From a virus: a DNA stretch of 20,799 bases. A program made the position numbers and the translations under genes. Shown one piece after another: positions 8,437 to 20,799 of the stretch (the stretch's first letter is position 1; the number at the start of each line of letters is the position of its first letter). Below the pieces are notes generated by a model that saw only the letters and a program-made list of their open reading frames with translations, did no database searches and was not told the origin of the DNA. The stretch covers positions 1-20,799 of IMG/VR virus record IMGVR_UViG_3300031672_000018. The stretch is one strand, 5' to 3'.

Positions 8437-9747
8437 TCAACTTGCTCCTTCTGGTAGAGATACTTCAAACAGTCTTCCTCTACCATCACGTATTAAATTA
8501 GACTCAACTGGTGTTTGTGTTCCCGAAATAGGGATCAAACCGGAACTACCTCCTTCATCTGTTGCACTAGCTACCATCGTTCTAGCCTTAACAGGTTTGG
8601 GTGGAGCGCTGAAAGCTACTACTTGTGCCTGCGTTGTTGGTGCTGAAACTTTAGAGGCTACTGGTGCTGCGGTACTACCCGAAGGAGGCGAGAAACTAGA
8701 GGCTAGGTAATTGCTAGGAGTCCCCTCCATCTGAGAAAACTTTAAGTAGGGTATGCCTACCTTACCGTACAAAGTCTGATACACATCCATCACTGATAGA
8801 TCCCGGCCTCCCCGAAAGAAGATACCAGGGTTATCTCTAGCTGCTGTTGGCATGAGCTTAACAGCATCCATGTAAGGATTCGCAGATATAGCAGATAGAA
8901 GAGTTTTTACACCCGTTGGACCTAGAAAATAGCCTGCGTATATATCCGTCACAGAGGGCTTTCTATGCAGAAACTTCTTAAGCCCGTTCATCACCTCTCT
9001 AACGTACAACGCTCCTATAATTGCGTTTGCTCTTGGGTTCCGAATATCACTCTGACGTATTCCTAGCTGTGATCCATATCTGGATACCATTTGTCTCCAC
9101 GTACCCGGGGTTATTTGCAGTAACCCGATTGCACCGATTCCGGAGACCGCACCAGTCTTGAAATGGGACTCTTGGTGCGCTATAGCTAACAAAACTGCCT
9201 TATCCACTCCCGATATTTTAGAAGCTTCCGTTAAGTATGAGTCCACTCTTTCCGAAGGTCTGCTAATCGGAGCAGACTTCACAGGAAGGGCATTAGTAGG
9301 GATGGAGGTATCGGGTGAAAGAGAAGGAATGCTCGGCGACGACAACCACGTCTTTGCCTTATCCACTCCATGTTCTACTTCACCTCCGACCTTCTCCGCT
9401 GGTTTAACCAACCAGTTCACAACTGGAATTTTTGACGCTACACTCCTCAGTTCCTTTCCTACACCCGATATATCAAACGTTGTTGCTTCCTTAGACAGTG
9501 AGTGCAGGATACCTTTGAGCGTCCAATCTTTCTTCACTCCTAGTAAATTAGTTAGGGCGTACCCTATACCGGCTATCCCTAGAACAGCCGTAGTTCCCGT
9601 TATCATCTCTGCCTTTTTGTGCCGGAACAGAGAGAACGATTTATTCTCTTGTCTCTCCACGCTTTCGAGTTTTCGATCCCCCAGTGCATCCTCCTTTACT
9701 CCACCCAGAATCTTCTCAGCAAATTGAAGAATGACGGACTTAGTCAT
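8437..9747 (-). CDS. Tail-associated lytic transglycosylase (SLT domain)
   Basis: A soluble lytic transglycosylase-type domain occupies about residues 170-310: the catalytic Glu is in LLAIAHQESHF (about Glu193), followed by GLLQITPGTW (about 208-217) and the Tyr-containing TDIYAGYFLGPTG. Such enzymes cleave the MurNAc-GlcNAc bond in peptidoglycan with formation of an anhydro end. Before it are a hydrophobic stretch (about 47-69, ITGTTAVLGIAGIGYALTNLL) and a linker; after it a long Pro/Ser/Ala-rich tail. I chose ATG at 9747 (436 residues), one base after the tape measure stop and behind GGGAG, over in-frame ATGs at 9768 and 9762 that would overlap the upstream gene. It probably replaces the lysozyme missing from the spike. 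Confidence 0.9.
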   Translation of the reverse strand: MTKSVILQFAEKILGGVKEDALGDRKLESVERQENKSFSLFRHKKAEMITGTTAVLGIAGIGYALTNLLGVKKDWTLKGILHSLSKEATTFDISGVGKELRSVASKIPVVNWLVKPAEKVGGEVEHGVDKAKTWLSSPSIPSLSPDTSIPTNALPVKSAPISRPSERVDSYLTEASKISGVDKAVLLAIAHQESHFKTGAVSGIGAIGLLQITPGTWRQMVSRYGSQLGIRQSDIRNPRANAIIGALYVREVMNGLKKFLHRKPSVTDIYAGYFLGPTGVKTLLSAISANPYMDAVKLMPTAARDNPGIFFRGGRDLSVMDVYQTLYGKVGIPYLKFSQMEGTPSNYLASSFSPPSGSTAAPVASKVSAPTTQAQVVAFSAPPKPVKARTMVASATDEGGSSGLIPISGTQTPVESNLIRDGRGRLFEVSLPEGAS

Positions 9748-9748
9748 C

Positions 9749-12100
9749 TCATGCTCCCGCATTGGCAAGCACGTTAAGGTTCATAGCTAGGAGTCCCCCA
9801 TCCACTGTACTGAACAGAGGGAAAGAGTTTACTCCCACTTTAGAAGAGGGCCCTATAGCAGATAGTCCTCCCTTTCCTCCTCCTGCGTTAGCAACGGTAG
9901 GATTCGGTTGCGATAAATCTGTACCCTTTGCAGGAGTGTGGAAGGACTCATTAACAGGAGCAGAATTACTAGAACCAGCACCCGCTGAGAAAGCCCCCGC
10001 CTTTGCTGATGCCAGCGAAACACCCTTCGGCTGAATGTGCCAGGGCTCACCACTTACTGGACGCACGAAACCGTACTTCTGCAGAAGCCCGAGTTGGTTT
10101 AATTTGTTGGCATCGGTGCTCTGAATATCAATAGCGTACCCGTAGTTGTGCATCGAAGTGCCGGGTCTAGCTACTTTCTTGGGCGATCCTTCTGCTATGT
10201 TCTTATTGTAAATCCTCTGCTGATGAGCTATGGAACGAAAAGCGGAGTTAACCGTTATAGTCTTCCCGGTTTTATTTTTGTACTCCTGCGCCATGCTCAT
10301 GAAATTCTTTTTAACGGAAGGGTGCAGGTCCTGCACGTCTACATTACCACTGCTGGTCCTGAAGAGCTTACCCAAGTAGCCCTTCATACTCTCGTAGCCC
10401 TTCCCTACTGATCCTACAGCACTTGTAGCGCCAGTTGCTGCTCCAGTAGCAATCGATCCTGTAATACTTTTTGTAGCACCTCCTATCTGCGCTGCTTTCT
10501 TCTTGGTCCAGTCTACAGCATCTCCTGCCTTCATGGAAGTATAGTCTATGGCTTTGTGTATTCCACCAGAGACGGCGCTTTTGATATTGGATACACTGTG
10601 CTTTAGTCTACCCCATAGATCCGCTATCTTCTCGCCTATCTTACCAAAGAAGGCTTTCGCTTCAGTAAACTTATTCCCTATCCAGTGAACTGTTTTATCC
10701 ACGGCATCCAGGATTTGGACGTCGAACTTCTTGTATATCCAAGAGCCTGCCATCCATCCCGCTACACCAGCACCTATGACTAATCCAGCGGGACTCTTCA
10801 GGAACTTGCCCAGTACACTTCCTATCCCACCCACTATTCGGAGAGCACCTGAAGCTAGTCCAGTTAGGCCACCCAGCATCTTCTTCAGAATGAAGGGGAT
10901 AACAGAACCAATGAGACCTCCGGTGAAAAACCCAATCATAGAACTCAGAATACCTTTAGCGAACCCTCCTATCCAATGGCCTACACTGCTGGATTTATGC
11001 GCAGCTTTCTGGAAAGATTTGCGGAAAAGGATTAACTGATCCAGGTGTTCACGGAACAGGTTTACCAGGCTAAACCTGCTTTTCTTACTGGAACGGAAAT
11101 AGGCAGCGAACATACCTATTACTTTCTCCTCTTCCATCTTCTTAGAAGTTTCCTCAGCAGGGGTCTCTCCCTTCTTAGGAGCGCGCACTTTTACTGACCG
11201 AGCTTTACCCTTTTTGGGAGCGGCTTCCTCTGTAGTAGGAACTGCCTCTTCCGCCTTAGGAGCGCGCACTTTTACTGGGTGCGCTATTCTAGGGATCAAC
11301 CCCATAGCCCTACCCGCACCGAACAGCCATCTAGCTGCTTTAAAGGGCCAAATGAGTGTCTTAACTCCGATCTTCGCTAGTTTGAAAAGATTAGTGATAT
11401 TGATGGGGCCTATACCTACTTCGCTTCCGATATTGGCCAGGGTAGTACCGATGGCCATACCTAAGCCCGCAATCCCTCCCATCACCTTCTCTTTGAAGGC
11501 ACCTATATCCTCTCTTAGCTTGTCTATCTCAGCTAGTCTTTTATCCTTTATGAAAGATAGATGCGCGCTAACTTTCTTACTCACTCCCTCCTTTCCTGTC
11601 TCGATGCCCCCTAGAAGGTTTTCAAGTTTCTCTCTATGCTCCTTAGAGGTGGGAAGATTAAGGTGTTCCCGGGCCTTTTGCATCCGTTTTTTAAGAGCAA
11701 GGATAGGAGCTCCCTTAACACCCTGCCTCTTCATATCCTTCAGAACGGCGTTCAAGTAATGAATCTGCGCGTCGAGGGCAGCCTTCTGTGGAAAGAGGGT
11801 GGTCTTAAACTCCTTCTTTTCCGACTTCTCTAACTTCTTATCCTCTTTGACCTTATGCTTCACCCACCAGCTGGGAGGGTTATGCTCGTACCTTATCAGC
11901 TTACCAAGTTTCTTAGAGGTTTCTTTGCTCACATCCTCTATCAGTTTCTTTCGTTCTTTAGCGTGTTCCTGCTTTTGAGCGATAGTGACTCGGGCTCCCC
12001 GGGGACCTAAAAAGCCAAGCTGATCCCCGGGCTTACCTTCGCCCAACCATTTCTTATATTCCCCCGCAGATCCGAAATCACCAGTAGTCTTAGAGGCCAT
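9749..12100 (-). CDS. Tape measure protein with M15 / VanY-type peptidase domain
   Basis: A 783-residue protein directly after the tail assembly chaperone, the classic position of the tape measure gene. Residues 20-200 are highly charged and probably coiled-coil; hydrophobic stretches occur at about 204-223 and 377-455, as expected for a protein ejected into the envelope. An Ala/Lys/Glu/Pro-rich linker at about 270-320 contains VKVRAPK twice. Residues about 580-693 form an M15-type metallopeptidase: AFRSIAHQQRIYN, SMHNYGYAIDI (His651, Asp658 as zinc ligands) and EPWHIQPKG (Glu685, His688). This family cuts peptidoglycan peptide cross-bridges. By the usual 0.15 nm per residue rule the tail would be near 115-120 nm (inference). 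Its ATG overlaps the chaperone-extension stop as TAATG. Confidence 0.85.
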   Translation of the reverse strand: MASKTTGDFGSAGEYKKWLGEGKPGDQLGFLGPRGARVTIAQKQEHAKERKKLIEDVSKETSKKLGKLIRYEHNPPSWWVKHKVKEDKKLEKSEKKEFKTTLFPQKAALDAQIHYLNAVLKDMKRQGVKGAPILALKKRMQKAREHLNLPTSKEHREKLENLLGGIETGKEGVSKKVSAHLSFIKDKRLAEIDKLREDIGAFKEKVMGGIAGLGMAIGTTLANIGSEVGIGPINITNLFKLAKIGVKTLIWPFKAARWLFGAGRAMGLIPRIAHPVKVRAPKAEEAVPTTEEAAPKKGKARSVKVRAPKKGETPAEETSKKMEEEKVIGMFAAYFRSSKKSRFSLVNLFREHLDQLILFRKSFQKAAHKSSSVGHWIGGFAKGILSSMIGFFTGGLIGSVIPFILKKMLGGLTGLASGALRIVGGIGSVLGKFLKSPAGLVIGAGVAGWMAGSWIYKKFDVQILDAVDKTVHWIGNKFTEAKAFFGKIGEKIADLWGRLKHSVSNIKSAVSGGIHKAIDYTSMKAGDAVDWTKKKAAQIGGATKSITGSIATGAATGATSAVGSVGKGYESMKGYLGKLFRTSSGNVDVQDLHPSVKKNFMSMAQEYKNKTGKTITVNSAFRSIAHQQRIYNKNIAEGSPKKVARPGTSMHNYGYAIDIQSTDANKLNQLGLLQKYGFVRPVSGEPWHIQPKGVSLASAKAGAFSAGAGSSNSAPVNESFHTPAKGTDLSQPNPTVANAGGGKGGLSAIGPSSKVGVNSFPLFSTVDGGLLAMNLNVLANAGA
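11174..11277. repeat. 23-bp direct repeat pair in the tape measure gene, 81 bp apart
   Basis: The same 23 bases (plus strand begins CTTAGGAGCGCGCACTTTTA) occur at 11174-11196 and 11255-11277. Each encodes part of VKVRAPK in the charged linker of the tape measure protein. The 81-base offset is 27 codons, so loss or gain of one unit would keep the frame. Confidence 0.8.
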
Positions 12101-13318: not shown

Positions 13319-14173
13319 TTAGATTAAGTTAGCTAACGTTGCAGCATTTCCAGTGCTAAAAAGTCCATTAGACTGCGAAGAAGTTGATCCATTTGCGCCA
13401 GTCAGTTGATCTATGAGTCCCTGCGGGAAGTTGTTCAACGAACTGAAGATCGCGTTTGCAAGATTAGGTGCGGATATGTTCTGAGCCGTAAACTGCAAGT
13501 CATCTACTGAAAATTCCTGCCCTGCAATAGTTCTATCGGAGGCTGCACTCGTTAAGTTGTACCCTTCCGGGGTACTTGGCCAACACCCGATGTATTTGAT
13601 GATGTAGACCGTTATCATTCTAGTTATATCCAGAATGGTTACAGTCACATTTTTCTTATAGTTTATTGGATAGTTGTATGTTCCTTTCAGTCCTATGACT
13701 TTCTCTCGCCATGCCTCCAAGTAGGCTTGCGTTAGGCCCGTGGAATCATCGTAAAACTTTGCGGATATATTTGATATTGAATGTTGGCCAGCAAAGTGGA
13801 AAACCTTTCCCCGCCTGTACTGATCTAGCGTCTCTAAGCTTCTCAGGGGCGCTGTGAATTCCTCTACATAGTTCCACGGCATCTTGTACCTACCAATAGT
13901 AGGAAACTCTGCGAACCAACAATAGTTCATCAGAGGATCCCGCCGCGAGGACATCCCATTTAGAACATGGTAGTTGAATCCTGCACCGGGGAGTTGAGAG
14001 GTAGGAACTACAGCGGAAGCTAGTACGATCGCGTCTTGGATGCCTTTGAAGTTAGAGCTACCTGCTATGGCTTGCCCTATACCACCCGGAAGACCCGCGA
14101 AAGAAGTTAAGGGGCTAGAAAGACCTTTGGAGATAACCCCTATGATATTGCCTAATCCGTCTTGAATTGACAT
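13319..14173 (-). CDS. Second tail-tube-like protein (tube/baseplate tube homologue)
   Basis: A 284-residue protein with tube-fold-like sequence at about 80-235: DPLMNYCWFAEFPTI, YVEEFTAPLRSLETLDQYRR, KVFHFAGQHSISNISAKFYD, then LEAWREKVIG and VTVTILD. These parallel the order of elements in gp19-type tube proteins (ligand-facing strand, long loop, ring-contact hairpin, helix, returning strands). The Gly/Ser/Ala-rich N-terminus (1-75) and Asn/Ser-rich C-terminus look flexible. It may be a minor tube ring, such as an initiator or terminator or a gp54-like protein. ATG at 14173 has AGAGG upstream. It lies between the 84-residue protein and the chaperone gene. Confidence 0.62.
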   Translation of the reverse strand: MSIQDGLGNIIGVISKGLSSPLTSFAGLPGGIGQAIAGSSNFKGIQDAIVLASAVVPTSQLPGAGFNYHVLNGMSSRRDPLMNYCWFAEFPTIGRYKMPWNYVEEFTAPLRSLETLDQYRRGKVFHFAGQHSISNISAKFYDDSTGLTQAYLEAWREKVIGLKGTYNYPINYKKNVTVTILDITRMITVYIIKYIGCWPSTPEGYNLTSAASDRTIAGQEFSVDDLQFTAQNISAPNLANAIFSSLNNFPQGLIDQLTGANGSTSSQSNGLFSTGNAATLANLI

Positions 14174-14201
14174 CTAATGGCCTCTGTGGGCAAAGTATTA
14201 T

Positions 14202-14456
14202 CTACATATCCTTTTTGATATTCTTAATCTCATCCTCTATCTGGTTCCACCTCTCACGGCTCATGGTCATTTTAGCTAGGCGTTCCAAAGCTTCTTTCTG
14301 AGCCTTTGACTTGGCTTTCGGGATCAGCTTCTCAATATCTTCCTTAAAGAAGCCCTCCCTAAGCACGGACGCCTCTATACCCTCTTTCGTCGCTAGCCCT
14401 TTACCACGACTAACTCTAGCTAGTTCTCTCAAGTCTTGCTTGAGAAAACGATCCAT
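14202..14456 (-). CDS. Small charged helical protein with the MD[RK]...DL[RQ].LA N-terminal motif
   Basis: Unknown function, 84 residues. I chose ATG at 14456, which overlaps the tube stop as TAATG; a longer in-frame start inside the tube gene would add a low-complexity Arg/Ser/Tyr segment that is out-of-frame tube sequence. The N-terminus MDRFLKQDLRELA closely matches those of the proteins at 15013-15198 (MDKYFGRDLQELA) and 15874-16236 (MDRLLFKDLRALA). The rest is Lys/Glu-rich and probably all helical (AKSKAQKEALERLAKM). It sits between tube and second tube-like gene. Confidence 0.75.
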   Translation of the reverse strand: MDRFLKQDLRELARVSRGKGLATKEGIEASVLREGFFKEDIEKLIPKAKSKAQKEALERLAKMTMSRERWNQIEDEIKNIKKDM

Positions 14457-14980
14457 TACAGACCACCCTGAGAGTCTACGGTGTAGTCGTAGGAGAATGT
14501 AATTGTTATAGTTACTGCACCCGAAGCCTGACCGTCTAGAGTAGCGTCGCTTACAGTCTGCGGCCATGCACCAAAGATCTGAACAGTGCGTACCTCAGAT
14601 GGGGTATCATCATACAAGACTAGCTGTATGGTAGTGGAATAGATAGATTTAGGAGCGCCTGTGTTAGCTACCCAGCTTCTTGCTAACTCACTCCAGTTCA
14701 CAAACATGGCCCTGGAACCCAAGTCACTAGTCTCCAGGAGCTGAACATCAAACGTATGGGTGTAGTTCTTGCGTCCCGCAAACTTTAATTCTACTCCGTG
14801 CAGAGCTACCGCAACCTCTTCTAGGTTTACGCCCGGAATGACCGCTGTCATGCACTTGAAGGTAAACGCGCGGGAGCTAGAGTTACCCGGCATGGAAGGG
14901 ATGATTAAGTCCCAGTTCCATTGCTGTAGAGGGTCTCCAACGCTCCTAACATCTTGCAAGCTAGATCTATTGAGTGCCAT
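14456..14980 (-). CDS. Tail tube protein, T4 gp19-like
   Basis: A 174-residue protein of the gp19 tube family, whose hexameric rings stack to form the inner tube for DNA passage. Family-like elements are a beta-rich N-terminus (QQWNWDLIIPSMPG), TAVIPGVNLEEVAVALHGVE (about 45-64), the strand YTHTFDVQLLETSDLG, a helix with MFVNWSELARSW, and returning strands TIQLVLYDD, RTVQIFGAWPQ and VTITITFSYDY. Length fits T4 gp19. ATG at 14980 has AAGGAG at good distance, among the better ribosome binding sites here, consistent with a major structural protein. It is separated from the sheath gene by four small genes, unlike T4 where gp18 and gp19 are adjacent. Confidence 0.9.
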   Translation of the reverse strand: MALNRSSLQDVRSVGDPLQQWNWDLIIPSMPGNSSSRAFTFKCMTAVIPGVNLEEVAVALHGVELKFAGRKNYTHTFDVQLLETSDLGSRAMFVNWSELARSWVANTGAPKSIYSTTIQLVLYDDTPSEVRTVQIFGAWPQTVSDATLDGQASGAVTITITFSYDYTVDSQGGL

Positions 14981-15012
14981 TGCTAATTGCTCCTTGGCCT
15001 AAATTGGCTGGA

Positions 15013-15198
15013 CTACTTCTTGAATACATCTAAATTTTTAGGTCTCTTATCCGTGCCTAAATTTTTGATAGAGGGACAGTACGCGCATTTACCCACCCAT
15101 TTATTAGTTTTGGAGTTGTAGACAGGATAGTACGTGTGCTCATGTTTCTTGACCTTCTCCGCTAACTCTTGCAGATCTCTTCCAAAGTATTTATCCAT
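15013..15198 (-). CDS. Small CxxC protein with the MD[RK]...DL[RQ].LA N-terminal motif
   Basis: Unknown function, 61 residues. It begins MDKYFGRDLQELAEKVKK, the shared motif, then HEHTYYPVYNSKTNKWVGKC and AYCPSI. His19, His21, Cys38 and Cys41 could form a small zinc site, with the short hairpin between them typical of a zinc ribbon; this is inference. The C-terminus is Lys-rich. It has no good ribosome binding site of its own: its ATG lies inside the last codons of the upstream 18-codon micro-ORF (sequence TAATGGATAA), suggesting translational coupling. The tail tube gene follows. Confidence 0.72.
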   Translation of the reverse strand: MDKYFGRDLQELAEKVKKHEHTYYPVYNSKTNKWVGKCAYCPSIKNLGTDKRPKNLDVFKK

Positions 15199-15247
15199 TA
15201 GCCGGTTCTGGTTCGAGTTCAGGGAAGGGCCACTTAGGATCGTTCAT
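15191..15247 (-). CDS. 18-codon micro-ORF (possible leader peptide)
   Basis: On the minus strand ATG at 15247 follows GAGGAGGT by 4 bases, the strongest Shine-Dalgarno sequence I found in this window. It encodes MNDPKWPFPELEPEPANG and stops at TAA 15193-15191, which overlaps the start of the 61-residue gene. It begins one base after the stop of the acidic protein. The peptide is Pro/Glu-rich. Either it is a real micropeptide or its translation delivers ribosomes to the next start, which has no good site of its own. Confidence 0.5.
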   Translation of the reverse strand: MNDPKWPFPELEPEPANG

Positions 15248-15248
15248 C

Positions 15249-15866
15249 CTAACCTCCTCGGTGATAGCTCTTTTTGGCTGCTAAAGTCCTTGCGCGTTTA
15301 TATAGAGTGCTCATTTCTACATCCTCTTCCCGTTTAAGAGTTGCATCGGAATCGTCACCGTCGGCAGAATCGTCCGCCACCTCTGGCGCGAATCCCGCTT
15401 CATCATCCTCTAGCTCCTCGTCACAGGCTTCATCAGTAACCCCAATTCCACCCGCACTTCCCTGACCTGATACACCCTCGCCCTCGGCTAGGGTAGCGAC
15501 ATCATCCATCTCACCAACACCGTAGTCAGAGTCCTCGTTGTTGTCGCCCACCTCGTTCTGCCCTACCATGCCCTCTCCGCTTTCCGCATCACCCGCGTCA
15601 TCTGCGAAGTCCGTATTGGTGTAGTTCTCCAGAGAGATTTGGGCTTTTGTTTTTCGACGTACAGAAGCTTTGTTCATGTTATCACGGATCTCATTCTTCT
15701 CATCCGTGTTCAGCTTTACTTTATCATTGAGGGTCTTCTCTTTGTTAGTGTCCCCCTTGCTTCTAGCATTCTTCATTTGTTTTTGCAGGTTCTGACCCTG
15801 CTTCTGCTTCTTCGAAAGTTTTTCAACTGGAGTTGCAGCGGGCTTCTTAGCAAGAGTTTTGATCAT
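15249..15866 (-). CDS. Acidic low-complexity protein with basic ends (possible prohead-core-like or assembly protein)
   Basis: A 205-residue protein with three zones: a Lys-rich N-terminus (1-75; EKLSKKQKQGQNLQKQMKNA), a strongly acidic Asp/Glu/Gly/Ala zone (about 85-185; CDEELEDDEAGFAPEVADD), and a basic C-terminus TLYKRARTLAAKKSYHRGG. I recognise no fold. A similar basic-acidic-basic plan is seen in the protein at 20162-20799. Acidic internal proteins such as T4 gp67/gp68 belong to the prohead core, but the position between sheath and tube is unusual for that, so a tail assembly or nucleic-acid-mimic role is also possible. ATG at 15866 has GAGG upstream. Its last codons contain the Shine-Dalgarno of the micro-ORF. 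Confidence 0.72.
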   Translation of the reverse strand: MIKTLAKKPAATPVEKLSKKQKQGQNLQKQMKNARSKGDTNKEKTLNDKVKLNTDEKNEIRDNMNKASVRRKTKAQISLENYTNTDFADDAGDAESGEGMVGQNEVGDNNEDSDYGVGEMDDVATLAEGEGVSGQGSAGGIGVTDEACDEELEDDEAGFAPEVADDSADGDDSDATLKREEDVEMSTLYKRARTLAAKKSYHRGG

Positions 15867-15873
15867 GGTGACC

Positions 15874-16236
15874 TCAATCTACTGGAATCTTATCTACTAG
15901 AGTAGCTATTCTTTTGTACGTAGCCTTATTCTTCTTGCACTCATCGACGAATCTCCTGACCAAATTACTGTAAGGTTCTTTCACGCTCTTAGCTACGATA
16001 GTCATGTGCGCTAAATAGAAAGACAGAGCATTGTCTAGAAAAGATCCGCCCGCTGTTAGAGGGTTCACCCCAAAGATATTCTTGACGATTCTACGAGCTA
16101 AATTGATTTGGACGGGAGTGACCATAACCCGGAGCCCCTTGCTAGGAACTGTTTCGTAGGGTCCGGGTTCACCTAGATCAGGAAACTTATCCATGTTAGC
16201 TAGAGCCCGTAAGTCCTTAAAGAGTAAGCGATCCAT
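15874..16236 (-). CDS. Small helical protein with the MD[RK]...DL[RQ].LA N-terminal motif
   Basis: Unknown function, 120 residues. The N-terminus MDRLLFKDLRALANMDKF carries the motif shared with the proteins at 14202-14456 and 15013-15198; its first bases, ATGGATCG, are identical to those of the 14202-14456 gene. After a Pro/Gly-rich linker (PDLGEPGPYETVPSKG) the remainder appears helical (INLARRIVKNIFG, FLDNALSFYLAHMTIVAKSV, LVRRFVDECKKN). No catalytic motif is seen. ATG at 16236 has AAGG ribosome binding sequence upstream and lies 15 bases after the sheath stop. Confidence 0.78.
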   Translation of the reverse strand: MDRLLFKDLRALANMDKFPDLGEPGPYETVPSKGLRVMVTPVQINLARRIVKNIFGVNPLTAGGSFLDNALSFYLAHMTIVAKSVKEPYSNLVRRFVDECKKNKATYKRIATLVDKIPVD

Positions 16237-16251
16237 TTACCTTATCCTTAT

Positions 16252-18528
16252 CTAGGGAAGTTGCTGAATGTTGATTTCAGAGTAAGTCACTCCTTGTTTC
16301 GTAATTACCAGATCCACTTGAATCTGATGAATCGGAATGATAGGAGTAATGAACACAGTTACCTTGAGGATACCCGCTCCAGTTAAAGAGCTCGGGTTAT
16401 TTGTGGCATCACTGACCACTAAGTAGTCCGAGATACCCTGGGCATTCATAATCAGTTCTAAGTAATCGCTGATACCCGATACGATGCTTCTACGCACAAA
16501 GTCATCGTTCGGTTCTTCCAAGGAATACAGCAAGAACTGATATGTTGACTTCTTAATCGCATTAACTAGTCTGCGAACAGATAGCCATCTAAGTGCGGAT
16601 ACCTTTGCTTCCAGAGTGGTTTGTTCCCACAGGGCAATACCCGCACCAACAAAGTTTCGAGTAAAGTTGATCTGGGCTGCGAACAGCGCGTTTCTATCTC
16701 CTTGATCAAACCCAGGTAATCCCGTGACTGGATTCGGTCGTATACCCAGTACGTTCACTAAGCCTCTATTCAGACCAGCGATGGAATACCAAGTCTGCGC
16801 TACCCTATCTGTTCTAGCACATAGAGCAGCCGCCCAACCTGAGAAGGGAACGTACAGTGCGGTTCCATTATACGGATCACTCTCTAGCACATCCGGACCA
16901 AACAAGGCGGAGAAGGAGCTGTTTAGATTCAGGGTTAGGTTCCTGTAATCTATCATCCCTTGCGCGCCACTCTGTGAAGTGGCAGGAACATCAAGCAGCG
17001 CAATGCTCGTCGCTCTGCTCGTCGCAATGCTGTCTAGATTCTGTTGAATCCCGACGTCCGTGTACCCACCATTGATCAGGATATCTACATCAACCAGATC
17101 CCTTGAACTAAAGTAGGTTGTCCAAGCTGCCTGTATCTCTGAATTAGTCGGAGCAGTACCCGAAGTCCCTCCAGTTAGCGCCTGTGAAGATCCATACCCC
17201 CAAATAGTGGGGATAGTTACAAGGCTAGGAGCATTGCTTGAAACGTTGATATACTGGGAGAACGGATTAATACGTTGAGTTATCTCCATCTGCACACCAG
17301 TAGAATCTACCTGATCTACTAGCGAAACAGGGAAGGACTCAGCGGGTGTAGAACTAGAAACGGTTAAGTCAAAAACATTGACTGTAAACGTATTTACCAG
17401 CACCTGATTAGAGGCAACGGTAATCGGAAGTTGGGCACCCGGAGTTACTGAACCCGTATCCGTGTAGGTGTAAGTTCCCCCACCCACCGAAGCGATCAAA
17501 CTTTCCTTTCCTCCTACCCTACCGTAAACATTGAACCCTATCGCTCCTGCTTCCGCAGTCCAAGTAAGAATTACGGTATTGGTAGAACCTGAGGCTACTA
17601 CAGTTGTGATCTCACTGGAAGCAAGACTCTCTCCCGCCTTAGAAACAGCAGAAATTTTGTAAGCATAAGTACCAGTAGTATTAGTAACTGGTAGGGTACC
17701 GGTAGTTCCAGTAGACGAAACTAAATCAAAGCTAGTAGAAACAGATGTAAAGTATTCCGATTCAGCGTTTGTTGCCGTACCGAACCAAATCTGGTAACTG
17801 GTAGCTCCCGTTACTGCGGTCCAGGTGTAGGAGATCGAAGAAGTAGAACCAGTAGTCGTAACCCCAGTAGATTCTGCTCCCGCCTGCGTCGTGTTTCCAA
17901 AAGCGTCTACCGCTACGATTTTAACGTAGTAGGTAGCAGCGGCTAGGGTACCACCAGTCGTTGAGCCCACACCAGTCGCGGCGGTAGGTGTGAGTAACGC
18001 CGCTGTTAAATCACCACCCGTAGTAGACTGGGTCAGAACGGGAGCAGCCGGCGCTACAAGGTTATCGGAATTGATGCTAACTGCAATATTGTTACCATAC
18101 GATCCTGGACCATGTTTGGGCCAGAACAGAACCAATGCTGTGTTCGCTCCCTCTAGGGTTGTCCAGGCAGGAGTATTGGGAGTAGCTACTCCTCCACTCA
18201 CACCAGCTAACAGAGTTGCGTCAGCTGCGGTATTGGAGAGTAGGGCCGCAGAATAAGCGTATCCTGTTCCCAGAACTCTAAGACACCAAAGGGAGTTTCC
18301 CTCGCGGTGATAGTCTAGAGAGCAGTAGTGACCGAAAGAAATAGCTGCGTTAGGATTGCCATATTCCGATAGGAAAATATCCGGAGCAGTGCTATGAAAC
18401 AGGCCTTCCCTACCCTGCGAGGATACAAAAACTATTCCGGCATTAGCAGTGCTTTCCTGGACTAAGATCTGACTTAAGTCGATCTCATTAAAAGTTACAT
18501 CCGAAGATGTTTGAGTTAGGATTGCCAT
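16252..18528 (-). CDS. Tail sheath protein with two inserted FN3-like modules
   Basis: A 758-residue sheath protein. In the family it forms the contractile outer cylinder. The N-terminus (FNEIDLSQILVQESTANAGI) and the C-terminal half (GLNRGLVNVLGIRPNP, NFVGAGIALWEQTTLEAK, WLSVRRLVNAIKKSTYQFL, then VDLVITKQGVTYSEI at the end) are typical sheath. Between strands GNNIAVSI (about 152) and NTFTVNVFD (about 387) lie about 220 extra residues forming two fibronectin-III-like modules: about 160-285 (ATYYVKIVAVDAFGNTTQAG, YTWTAVTGATSYQIWFG) and 285-372 (TYAYKISAVSKAGES, VILTWTAEAGAIGFNVYGR, TYTYTDTGSVTPG). These probably decorate the sheath surface. ATG at 18528 follows GGAGAAGG. Confidence 0.93.
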   Translation of the reverse strand: MAILTQTSSDVTFNEIDLSQILVQESTANAGIVFVSSQGREGLFHSTAPDIFLSEYGNPNAAISFGHYCSLDYHREGNSLWCLRVLGTGYAYSAALLSNTAADATLLAGVSGGVATPNTPAWTTLEGANTALVLFWPKHGPGSYGNNIAVSINSDNLVAPAAPVLTQSTTGGDLTAALLTPTAATGVGSTTGGTLAAATYYVKIVAVDAFGNTTQAGAESTGVTTTGSTSSISYTWTAVTGATSYQIWFGTATNAESEYFTSVSTSFDLVSSTGTTGTLPVTNTTGTYAYKISAVSKAGESLASSEITTVVASGSTNTVILTWTAEAGAIGFNVYGRVGGKESLIASVGGGTYTYTDTGSVTPGAQLPITVASNQVLVNTFTVNVFDLTVSSSTPAESFPVSLVDQVDSTGVQMEITQRINPFSQYINVSSNAPSLVTIPTIWGYGSSQALTGGTSGTAPTNSEIQAAWTTYFSSRDLVDVDILINGGYTDVGIQQNLDSIATSRATSIALLDVPATSQSGAQGMIDYRNLTLNLNSSFSALFGPDVLESDPYNGTALYVPFSGWAAALCARTDRVAQTWYSIAGLNRGLVNVLGIRPNPVTGLPGFDQGDRNALFAAQINFTRNFVGAGIALWEQTTLEAKVSALRWLSVRRLVNAIKKSTYQFLLYSLEEPNDDFVRRSIVSGISDYLELIMNAQGISDYLVVSDATNNPSSLTGAGILKVTVFITPIIPIHQIQVDLVITKQGVTYSEINIQQLP

Positions 18529-19123: not shown

Positions 19124-20080
19124 TTAGGAATACGCAAAGGATGTGGGTGATTGCACTGTACTTCCATTTCCAACTACGGAAACGTACCCTGTCGTTGCAC
19201 TTCCAAGATTGGGTGTAGTAGCAGTAATCTTATTGTTGGCCCAAATCTGAAATGATGGGGCAGCCACACCTTTAAAGTAAACAGCAGTAACGTAGTTCAA
19301 ATATGAACCAAGTATGGTTACCACAGTTCCATTGTGAATTACCGAGGGAGTAACAGCTTGAATGACGGGTATAGGAGAGTTATTCTCGTTGTCCACTTTC
19401 TCTACTCCACCCCATTTGTTTTGAAATAGGAATACTTGATCACCCGGACTTGATTGATCTCCAAGCAAACCCTGCACCTCTACATCTGTAGCGACTTGCT
19501 GGATTCGTAGCTTCTTGGAACTGGTCCATCCCTTGACAGTTAGAGTAGAAACAGTTATGAACTCGCTTATATTTGTCGGATCCGCTTCTCTCTTGGGGAT
19601 AGCTATATCTTCAGTTAGGATTAACCATATGTGAAACGGAGTATCTCCGTACTGAATACTAAACTTTAAGTAACCCGATCGGGCAGCAAACAACCATAGC
19701 TTCGAAAATTCCATCACTCCAACGAAGTTGTTATCCTTGTAGGTCACTTCTAAAACGAAATCCGTTGGAAGGCACGTAACTTTATAGACTTGATGCTGGT
19801 CAGAAGAGAGCATCGTATCCACTCCGCGCCGCAAAAAAGGCGTGGGTCGCCACCCATCAGGCGAAGTAGTTAAGGAGGTTATTGTCGCTGTAATGTAGGG
19901 ATAGGCAACAGCGTCACCGCCTTGTATTTTTTTGACAGCTTGAATCTCATTTGTAGCGTTAACAAGAACAGTGGGAACTCCAAAAACTTCCTGCAGTCTG
20001 CCCAGAAGGCCACTAAAAATGTAGCTTTCAATGGGTTCAATTTTAGGTTGTGCAGGAGCGCTAGGGAGAGGAGCAGCCAT
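19124..20080 (-). CDS. Probable neck / tail-completion protein with C-terminal IPT/TIG-like domain
   Basis: A 318-residue protein. Residues 1-235 look like a phage head-tail joining or tail terminator-type protein (ESYIFSGLLGRLQEVFGV, then beta strands such as VYKVTCLPTDFVLEVTYKD and YLKFSIQYGDTPFHIWLIL); the gp3/gp15-like role is inferred from its place just upstream of the sheath. Residues about 236-318 form an IPT/TIG-like immunoglobulin domain: VIQAVTPSVIHNGTVVTILG, VTAVYFKGVAAPSFQIWANN, ITATTPNLGSATTGYVSVVG. ATG at 20080 has no Shine-Dalgarno match (CTTCCTAAATT precedes it) and lies only about 20 bases from the terminator hairpin, so how its translation and transcription start is unclear. 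Confidence 0.72.
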   Translation of the reverse strand: MAAPLPSAPAQPKIEPIESYIFSGLLGRLQEVFGVPTVLVNATNEIQAVKKIQGGDAVAYPYITATITSLTTSPDGWRPTPFLRRGVDTMLSSDQHQVYKVTCLPTDFVLEVTYKDNNFVGVMEFSKLWLFAARSGYLKFSIQYGDTPFHIWLILTEDIAIPKREADPTNISEFITVSTLTVKGWTSSKKLRIQQVATDVEVQGLLGDQSSPGDQVFLFQNKWGGVEKVDNENNSPIPVIQAVTPSVIHNGTVVTILGSYLNYVTAVYFKGVAAPSFQIWANNKITATTPNLGSATTGYVSVVGNGSTVQSPTSFAYS

Positions 20081-20161: not shown

Positions 20162-20799
20162 TTACTTCTTGATAGGACGATACGAAGCAGAGAGTCTCGC
20201 CAGGATTCTAAGATTTCTCATGGAGCGGGCAACGTTCTGGTTCGATAGCCCAGCACGAGCCTTTTTCCGCTTCTTAGCCTTTTTCTTGGCTTTAGCTAGG
20301 ACAGCTCGGGCTCTGGCTACAGCTTTGGACTCAACCCCATCCTCGCCGAAACCATCCGCACCCATCATCAGGGAGTCGCCTTCCTGACCATCGGCACCTT
20401 CTTCCTCATCTCCATCTTCTTCGCTATCTGCGTCTGCCTGCTCCTCCTCATCGTCGCCGTCAACGCTTTCGTCGATATCCGCGTCTTCCTCGGATTCGTC
20501 CTCATCGCCATCTGCGTCCGCTTCTGTTTCCGCGGGGACGTCGGCGTCCCCTGGCATAGCAGGATCACCCTGGTACAGATCTTCGCTTTCTTCTTGATCT
20601 AGCTCTAGATCGTCGTTACTGTCAGCATCCGCCCTAATCTGTTTTCTTGCCTTAGCAAGCAACTGAGAAAACTTAGGATCGCGCTTAGCAGCGATTTCGT
20701 TCGCCCGATCAAGAATACCAGCGGTCGTTTCCATCCGAGGATGAATGGCCGCCCTAACAAACATGCGAGCCGCCTGTTCCTTCTTACCTTGTCTGTACA
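20162..20799 (-). CDS. Acidic low-complexity protein, 5' end beyond the window (possible prohead-core-like protein)
   Basis: The frame stays open past the first ATG at 20764 to the window edge, reading YRQGKKEQAARMFVRAAIHP, which looks like real coding sequence, so the true start lies outside. The visible 211 residues comprise a helical basic N-terminal part (GILDRANEIAAKRDPKFSQL), a long Asp/Glu tract (DGDEDESEEDADIDESVDGD), and a Lys/Arg-rich end (AKAKKKAKKRKKARAG, then RILARLSASYRPIKK). Function is unknown. The charge layout resembles the protein at 15249-15866, and phage head-core or scaffold-type proteins are often of this kind. It ends 20 bases before a strong terminator, so it probably closes an upstream transcript. 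Confidence 0.72.
   Translation of the reverse strand, partial: YRQGKKEQAARMFVRAAIHPRMETTAGILDRANEIAAKRDPKFSQLLAKARKQIRADADSNDDLELDQEESEDLYQGDPAMPGDADVPAETEADADGDEDESEEDADIDESVDGDDEEEQADADSEEDGDEEEGADGQEGDSLMMGADGFGEDGVESKAVARARAVLAKAKKKAKKRKKARAGLSNQNVARSMRNLRILARLSASYRPIKK

Follow-up and report, generated by a model that had tools for sequence, protein, structure and literature searches.

Shared N-terminal labels on unrelated small proteins of a jumbo myovirus and its relatives: a possible head-loading signal

Introduction

Why should three small proteins with unrelated bodies, encoded among the tail genes of a single phage, begin with the same 13-residue pattern? The question is raised by a 20.8-kb fragment (the whole stretch of DNA analysed here, hereafter the window) of a jumbo myovirus related to phages Motura, BcepSaruman and Lu11. 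The genomes of jumbo phages include hundreds of small genes of obscure function, and it is mostly unclear which of the products accompany the DNA into the host.

There are precedents for N-terminal sequences that direct proteins into phage heads. The best known is the capsid-targeting sequence (CTS) of T4 (PMC5694885), where Alt, an ADP-ribosyltransferase, is packed into the head and then injected (PMC5512222). In P1, the first 30 residues of DarB are enough to bring a reporter into the capsid (PMC9024508), whilst DarA sits inside the head and loses its N-terminus during assembly (PMC12810830). A sequence-only reading of the window had likened the logic of the shared N-terminus to that of the T4 peptides. 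Here we describe the three proteins, compare them with the small proteins of related phages and weigh what the shared N-terminus might do.

The window phage and its labelled trio

The window tail sheath (16252..18528, minus strand; phrog_23, 1e-65) is ~47% identical to the sheaths of the Burkholderia phages BcepSaruman and BcepSauron and the Achromobacter phage Motura. A second contig (L084), 99.8% identical to the window over 5.8 kb, adds 8.6 kb of the same phage and takes in the gene for the capsid protein and that for a scaffold-like acidic protein of 539 aa. A helicase-profile scan for more of the phage returned no contig from its sample; the available sequence is 29 kb, and the three label copies described below are the most that can be counted in it.

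The three genes lie on the minus strand. Those encoding ORFans of 120 aa (15874..16236) and 61 aa (15013..15198) occupy the slot between sheath and tube, and that encoding a charged ORFan of 84 aa (14202..14456) lies between the tube (14456..14980, minus strand; phrog_45, 2e-26) and a second tube-like gene (13319..14173, minus strand; phrog_45, 5e-12). Between the labelled genes is a gene for an acidic 205-aa protein (15249..15866, minus strand), a candidate docking partner only. The interleaving of the trio with sheath, acidic, tube and second tube genes is upheld, with the sheath and tube identities coming from PHROGs. The 13319-14980 region (minus strand) is also of interest in its own right, as two different tail-tube-like proteins of one family are parted there by the 84-aa labelled gene.

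The labels themselves, MDRLLFKDLRALA (16198..16236), MDKYFGRDLQELA (15160..15198) and MDRFLKQDLRELA (14418..14456), all on the minus strand, are found exactly at the starts 16236, 15198 and 14456 and have the consensus MD[RK]xxx[KRQ]DL[RQ]xLA; nothing else in the whole window matches either the strict or a loosened form of this motif. A Shine-Dalgarno-like site, AAGGATAAGG, lies upstream of the 16236 start; a clear ribosome-binding site was not seen for the 61-aa ORFan. The 14456 start is nested in a longer ORF beginning at 14567, and its ATG shares one base with the end of the tube gene stop codon; it is the likelier start of the two.

Ungapped BLOSUM62 comparison of residues 2-13 gives scores of 35, 34 and 24 for the three pairs, against 13 for the next best pair amongst the 28 N-termini of the window phage. 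When N-termini were shuffled, no trio as good was obtained in 2000 attempts, the best shuffle scoring 16. When N-termini were instead drawn from a pool of real ones at related loci, trios as good did occur (80/3000), but this pool still contains orthologues and residual labels and was discarded as not being a clean null. Sharing of the N-terminus by the trio is confirmed as a real observation. Identical residues are mostly encoded by different codons, with third positions equal at 3-6 of 13, showing that it is the peptide that is conserved and not the DNA, and excluding recent DNA copying. The label is an amphipathic helix with a moment of 0.57-0.69.

Behind the label are bodies of 107, 48 and 71 residues, between which no similarity was found. 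They had been described as diverging completely after the motif into a helical protein, a CxxC protein and a charged coil; the divergence stands, no alignable similarity being detected, and the descriptions are fair by eye (the 61-aa protein has one CxxC, in HTYYP...KWVGKCAYCPS). Nor are the three proteins full-length homologues of one ordinary family, as full-length similarity of the kind expected of paralogues is absent among them. Neither of the two findings that the sequence-only reading had named as refuting a tag (homologues that lack the motif, or membership of one family) was made, the bodies having no homologues to compare. PDB and Pfam searches with the three bodies gave no match. 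The 120-aa protein has no homologue in phages, Pfam, PHROGs or the PDB, none was found for the 61-aa protein (PDB and Pfam included) and the phage search with the 84-aa protein gave matches only at E values of 0.5-0.6. AlphaFold modelling of the 120-aa protein from its single sequence gave a pLDDT of 47 and no usable model.

Other features of the window can be noted briefly. Two neighbouring wall-degrading domain proteins are encoded at 8437-12100 (minus strand), one of 783 aa that has a VanY D-Ala-D-Ala carboxypeptidase domain at its C-terminus (1e-12) and one of 436 aa with an SLT transglycosylase domain (1e-16). At 19124-20080 (minus strand) is a conserved phrog_17324 protein with an additional C-terminal IPT/TIG domain (5e-8); the homologue in L003 is shorter, at 228 aa, and apparently lacks IPT/TIG. 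A strongly acidic protein at 20162-20799 (minus strand) is truncated at the window edge but complete in L084, where it is 229 aa long, begins MLKQYSRALDLLLA and adjoins the capsid gene. Because its N-terminal helix pair is seen again in relatives, a core or scaffold role for this protein is plausible.

Labels in related phages

A sheath profile search identified 77 loci. In the relatives, the slots that hold the window ORFans are filled by other small genes, many of which start M-K-[LI]-x-A-A-x-R-L-x-A; around the sheath and tube, the bodies encoded by these same-slot genes are unrelated to one another. Small genes with tag-like N-termini also occupy the slot between tube and second tube in L003, L068 and L078. 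The window trio fits this pattern in its gene slots (between sheath and tube, and after the tube) and in its small ORFan bodies. In a set of 36 non-redundant loci, 22 of which have a labelled slot gene, the label was present on 38 of 100 slot genes compared with 0 of 121 conserved structural genes.

The label is not confined to these slots. Motura and two metagenomic phages each have some 11-22 proteins with MK[LI]xAAxRLxA, and many of the labelled genes of the relatives lie away from the tail genes. A position-specific scoring matrix (PSSM) for the label picked out 220 of 40,171 candidate starts in the relatives, against 11 of 21,734 internal controls. Clustering that made no use of the motif, pairing N-termini where the bodies are unlike, again gave the label, whose cluster was the largest in each of Motura, G009 and G010 (14, 22 and 13 proteins, respectively); N-terminal pairs outnumbered those in a matched internal control by 31 to 8, 159 to 3 and 34 to 1 in the same three genomes. 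Few labelled proteins are seen in BcepSaruman, and no repeated label was found in the 41-kb contig of L003, the nearest relative.

Conservation falls away sharply at the end of the label, from 2.43 bits at the final Ala to 0.86 at the following position (A/S/T) and about 0.3 or less beyond. Ala occupies the last conserved position in all three window labels and in 103 of 125 labels of relatives.

In some relatives the label motif is found internally or at C-termini as well. Examples occur in the BcepSaruman 52692-53067 and 177614-178100 region, in the 23833 region of G009 (L127) and at L005:16437-17009, and C-terminal ends include ...GLGAAARLVATAQ and ...KLGASARLLATAK. A 124-aa BcepSaruman protein has two label copies and the Motura acidic protein carries the label motif AIKASKRLKAEAE. 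BcepSaruman also encodes a 576-aa protein (L004:20998-22728) with repeated WW/WFxxL...YxxEHPxSKxA segments, which in many relatives follow labels too. The label MQAVARLLVTA inside this 576-aa protein suggests that two labelled proteins have been fused.

Other lineages have labels of their own. In Lu11, MKIQLAxA is present on about a dozen proteins. The label is MxIxNR[IV]xA in L202 and L248, MKLTAHYVEAA in L241, xFKIEAxxRIxA in L246 and MKTQALARLxxE in L226, the last being near the ALARLQxLA of G013; one contig of 231,255 bp has Y[ED]IKAAVxRL. Judged from these peptides, the labels are lineage-specific in sequence. The shared PaBG start [MTS]GLTRIP, on three proteins only, was not counted as a label. 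About ten of the genes with the Lu11 label form a cluster at 154-170 kb (L194-L195), several of them with YHGT/YHxT motifs and resembling ADP-ribosyltransferases.

What do the labelled proteins of the relatives look like? In L064 a DarA_C anti-restriction domain lies directly behind the label (Pfam, 1.6e-10); the protein matches P1 DarA and phrog_1926, annotated 'released from the phage upon host infection' (1.7e-21). DarA_C is also found in G013, behind a different N-terminus, and labelled NUDIX hydrolases occur in G009 and L202 behind two different labels, so that the same cargo classes recur under different labels. In a labelled homospermidine synthase, the alignment with the bacterial enzyme begins only at residue 19, behind the label, whilst the Motura synthase is unlabelled. 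G009 has a labelled T7-gp0.7-like kinase (3.4e-6). Amongst the labelled YHGT-motif proteins of Lu11 there is one weak ART-PolyVal match (9e-4), below the cut-off. From their domains, these proteins look like what would be expected of cargo delivered with the DNA.

The window label itself was not found in the relatives. Searching for the motif in the rest of the genome and in related phages had been proposed as a check, and it turned up no further copy in the window or in the complete genomes of BcepSaruman, BcepSauron and Motura. A search of viral contigs with three of the four codon variants found the window-type label nowhere besides the window phage's own near-identical contig; label-like matches in L085 and L166-L170 are short or internal frames and were attributed to chance. 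Conversely, no start in the window or L084 scored 9 or more with the clade-label PSSM. The labels of G013, the closest relative (ALARLQSLA), look by eye like a good intermediate between the clade and window labels, but are not the best matches of the window label in a BLOSUM search (ranks 7-8 of 259); this is not significant and homology is not claimed. The mean amphipathic moment of the relatives' labels is 0.25 (0.32 when shuffled), well below that of the window helix. For window and relatives we would therefore suggest a common way of working, from position and analogy, and not common descent.

A head-loading signal?

Taken alone, the trio is a curiosity; taken with the relatives, it appears to be an example of a widespread and apparently undescribed label system in jumbo phages. 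We found no paper describing these labels. The explanation that we favour, with a probability of about 0.6, is that the label is a lineage version of a head-loading signal that works like the capsid-targeting sequences of T4 and P1. The label would dock a small protein on the core, scaffold or inner shell of the prohead as it assembles; shut in alongside the DNA, the labelled protein would be carried into the next host, where its variable body would act. Localisation to the head, docking and ejection are inferred throughout. For the relatives, whose sequences suggest such a role, comparison makes a good case; for the window trio the proposal draws on position and analogy. The earlier idea of a tag on different bodies with T4-like logic is well supported by the relatives, where the same slots carry clade-specific labels and the labelled bodies are cargo-like; neither PSSM nor BLOSUM comparison matches the window label to theirs.

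How close is the resemblance to known systems? As in T4, where the CTS is a 10-20-residue N-terminus on otherwise unrelated proteins (internal proteins IPI-III and Alt; the protease is gp21), the window trio and the relatives have a short N-terminal peptide on unrelated bodies in one phage, and the ART-like proteins of the relatives recall Alt in T4's host-takeover cargo. The T4 sequence is unrelated, however, and cleavage in T4 and SPN3US-type phages follows Glu, at A-X-E and similar sites (PMC5694885), whereas the labels here end in Ala and Glu is absent from the leader end in the window. P1 offers the DarA body domain found in L064 and the loading capacity of the DarB N-terminus, but relies on an N-terminal region of its own and on the ordered assembly of Dar proteins; in the P1 Dar literature we found no description of a label common to tens of proteins. 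The phiKZ-like phages, with their inner-body and ejection proteins (SPN3US gp53, gp54 and gp45), are likewise jumbo myoviruses in which many proteins are loaded together with the DNA, but most propeptides in that group are long (111-254 residues), and they are cut off after A-X-E (PMC10052503, PMC5694885).

Removal of the label by cleavage after the final Ala is possible. The relatives have a head protease (phrog_18299), and in PaBG, a related phage, the mass of the capsid protein falls by about 20% on maturation (PMC7412058). The window major capsid protein (in L084) has QLKLMA and an acidic protein ends NLRILA, both resembling the DLRALA/DLRELA of the labels. When capsid proteins are aligned, however, QLKLMA falls outside the conserved F[LM]xA|[AS] register, and we do not claim this as a propeptide end with the same cleavage motif. 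As copies of the label are internal or C-terminal in some relatives, docking fits better than a purely cleaved leader.

Other explanations have to be weighed against head loading. The label might instead dock small accessory proteins on the tail, through the tube, the sheath or the acidic protein, a possibility that the sequence-only reading had raised too. All three window genes do lie among the sheath, tube and second tube-like genes, but many labelled genes in relatives are remote from tail genes and encode cytoplasmic enzymes or anti-restriction domains behind the label, and none of the 121 conserved structural genes is labelled; we regard tail docking as unlikely. Alternatively, one ORFan might have been copied, its N-terminus kept and the bodies replaced or diverged, with no common targeting role. 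The same MD[RK] start, the adjacent locations and the identity of 27 of 39 bases between two of the label sequences are in keeping with old duplication. The bodies differ in length and composition, however, retention of the first 13 residues whilst codons drift requires selection on the peptide and labels on unrelated bodies are general in relatives, all of which makes duplication alone distinctly unlikely. It is improbable that the label sends proteins to another site in the infected cell, such as an early vesicle, phage compartment or membrane: the amphipathic window helix could bind a membrane or coat, but labelled genes are grouped with the structural genes expressed late, and DarA_C is a domain of a protein that is known from P1 heads (PMC12810830). 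Chance, in the form of a helix-prone start common in phage proteins, is highly improbable: the motif is short and seen in one phage only, but the shuffles and the gap in pair scores speak against it.

Implications

If the label is a head-loading signal, the small genes of these phages could be sorted by sequence alone into those whose products are injected and those whose products are not, candidate anti-defence proteins would be flagged (the protein with the DarA-type domain being one) and short tags might be used to load chosen proteins into very large phage heads. A broader and more tentative proposal is that a large group of jumbo phages has an address-label system for the injected proteome, in which each lineage has its own short label on up to about 20 proteins, changing together with a receptor in the prohead, and of which the window phage may have the most divergent, helical version yet seen. 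Were this true, the set of proteins that a phage injects could be read from its genome.
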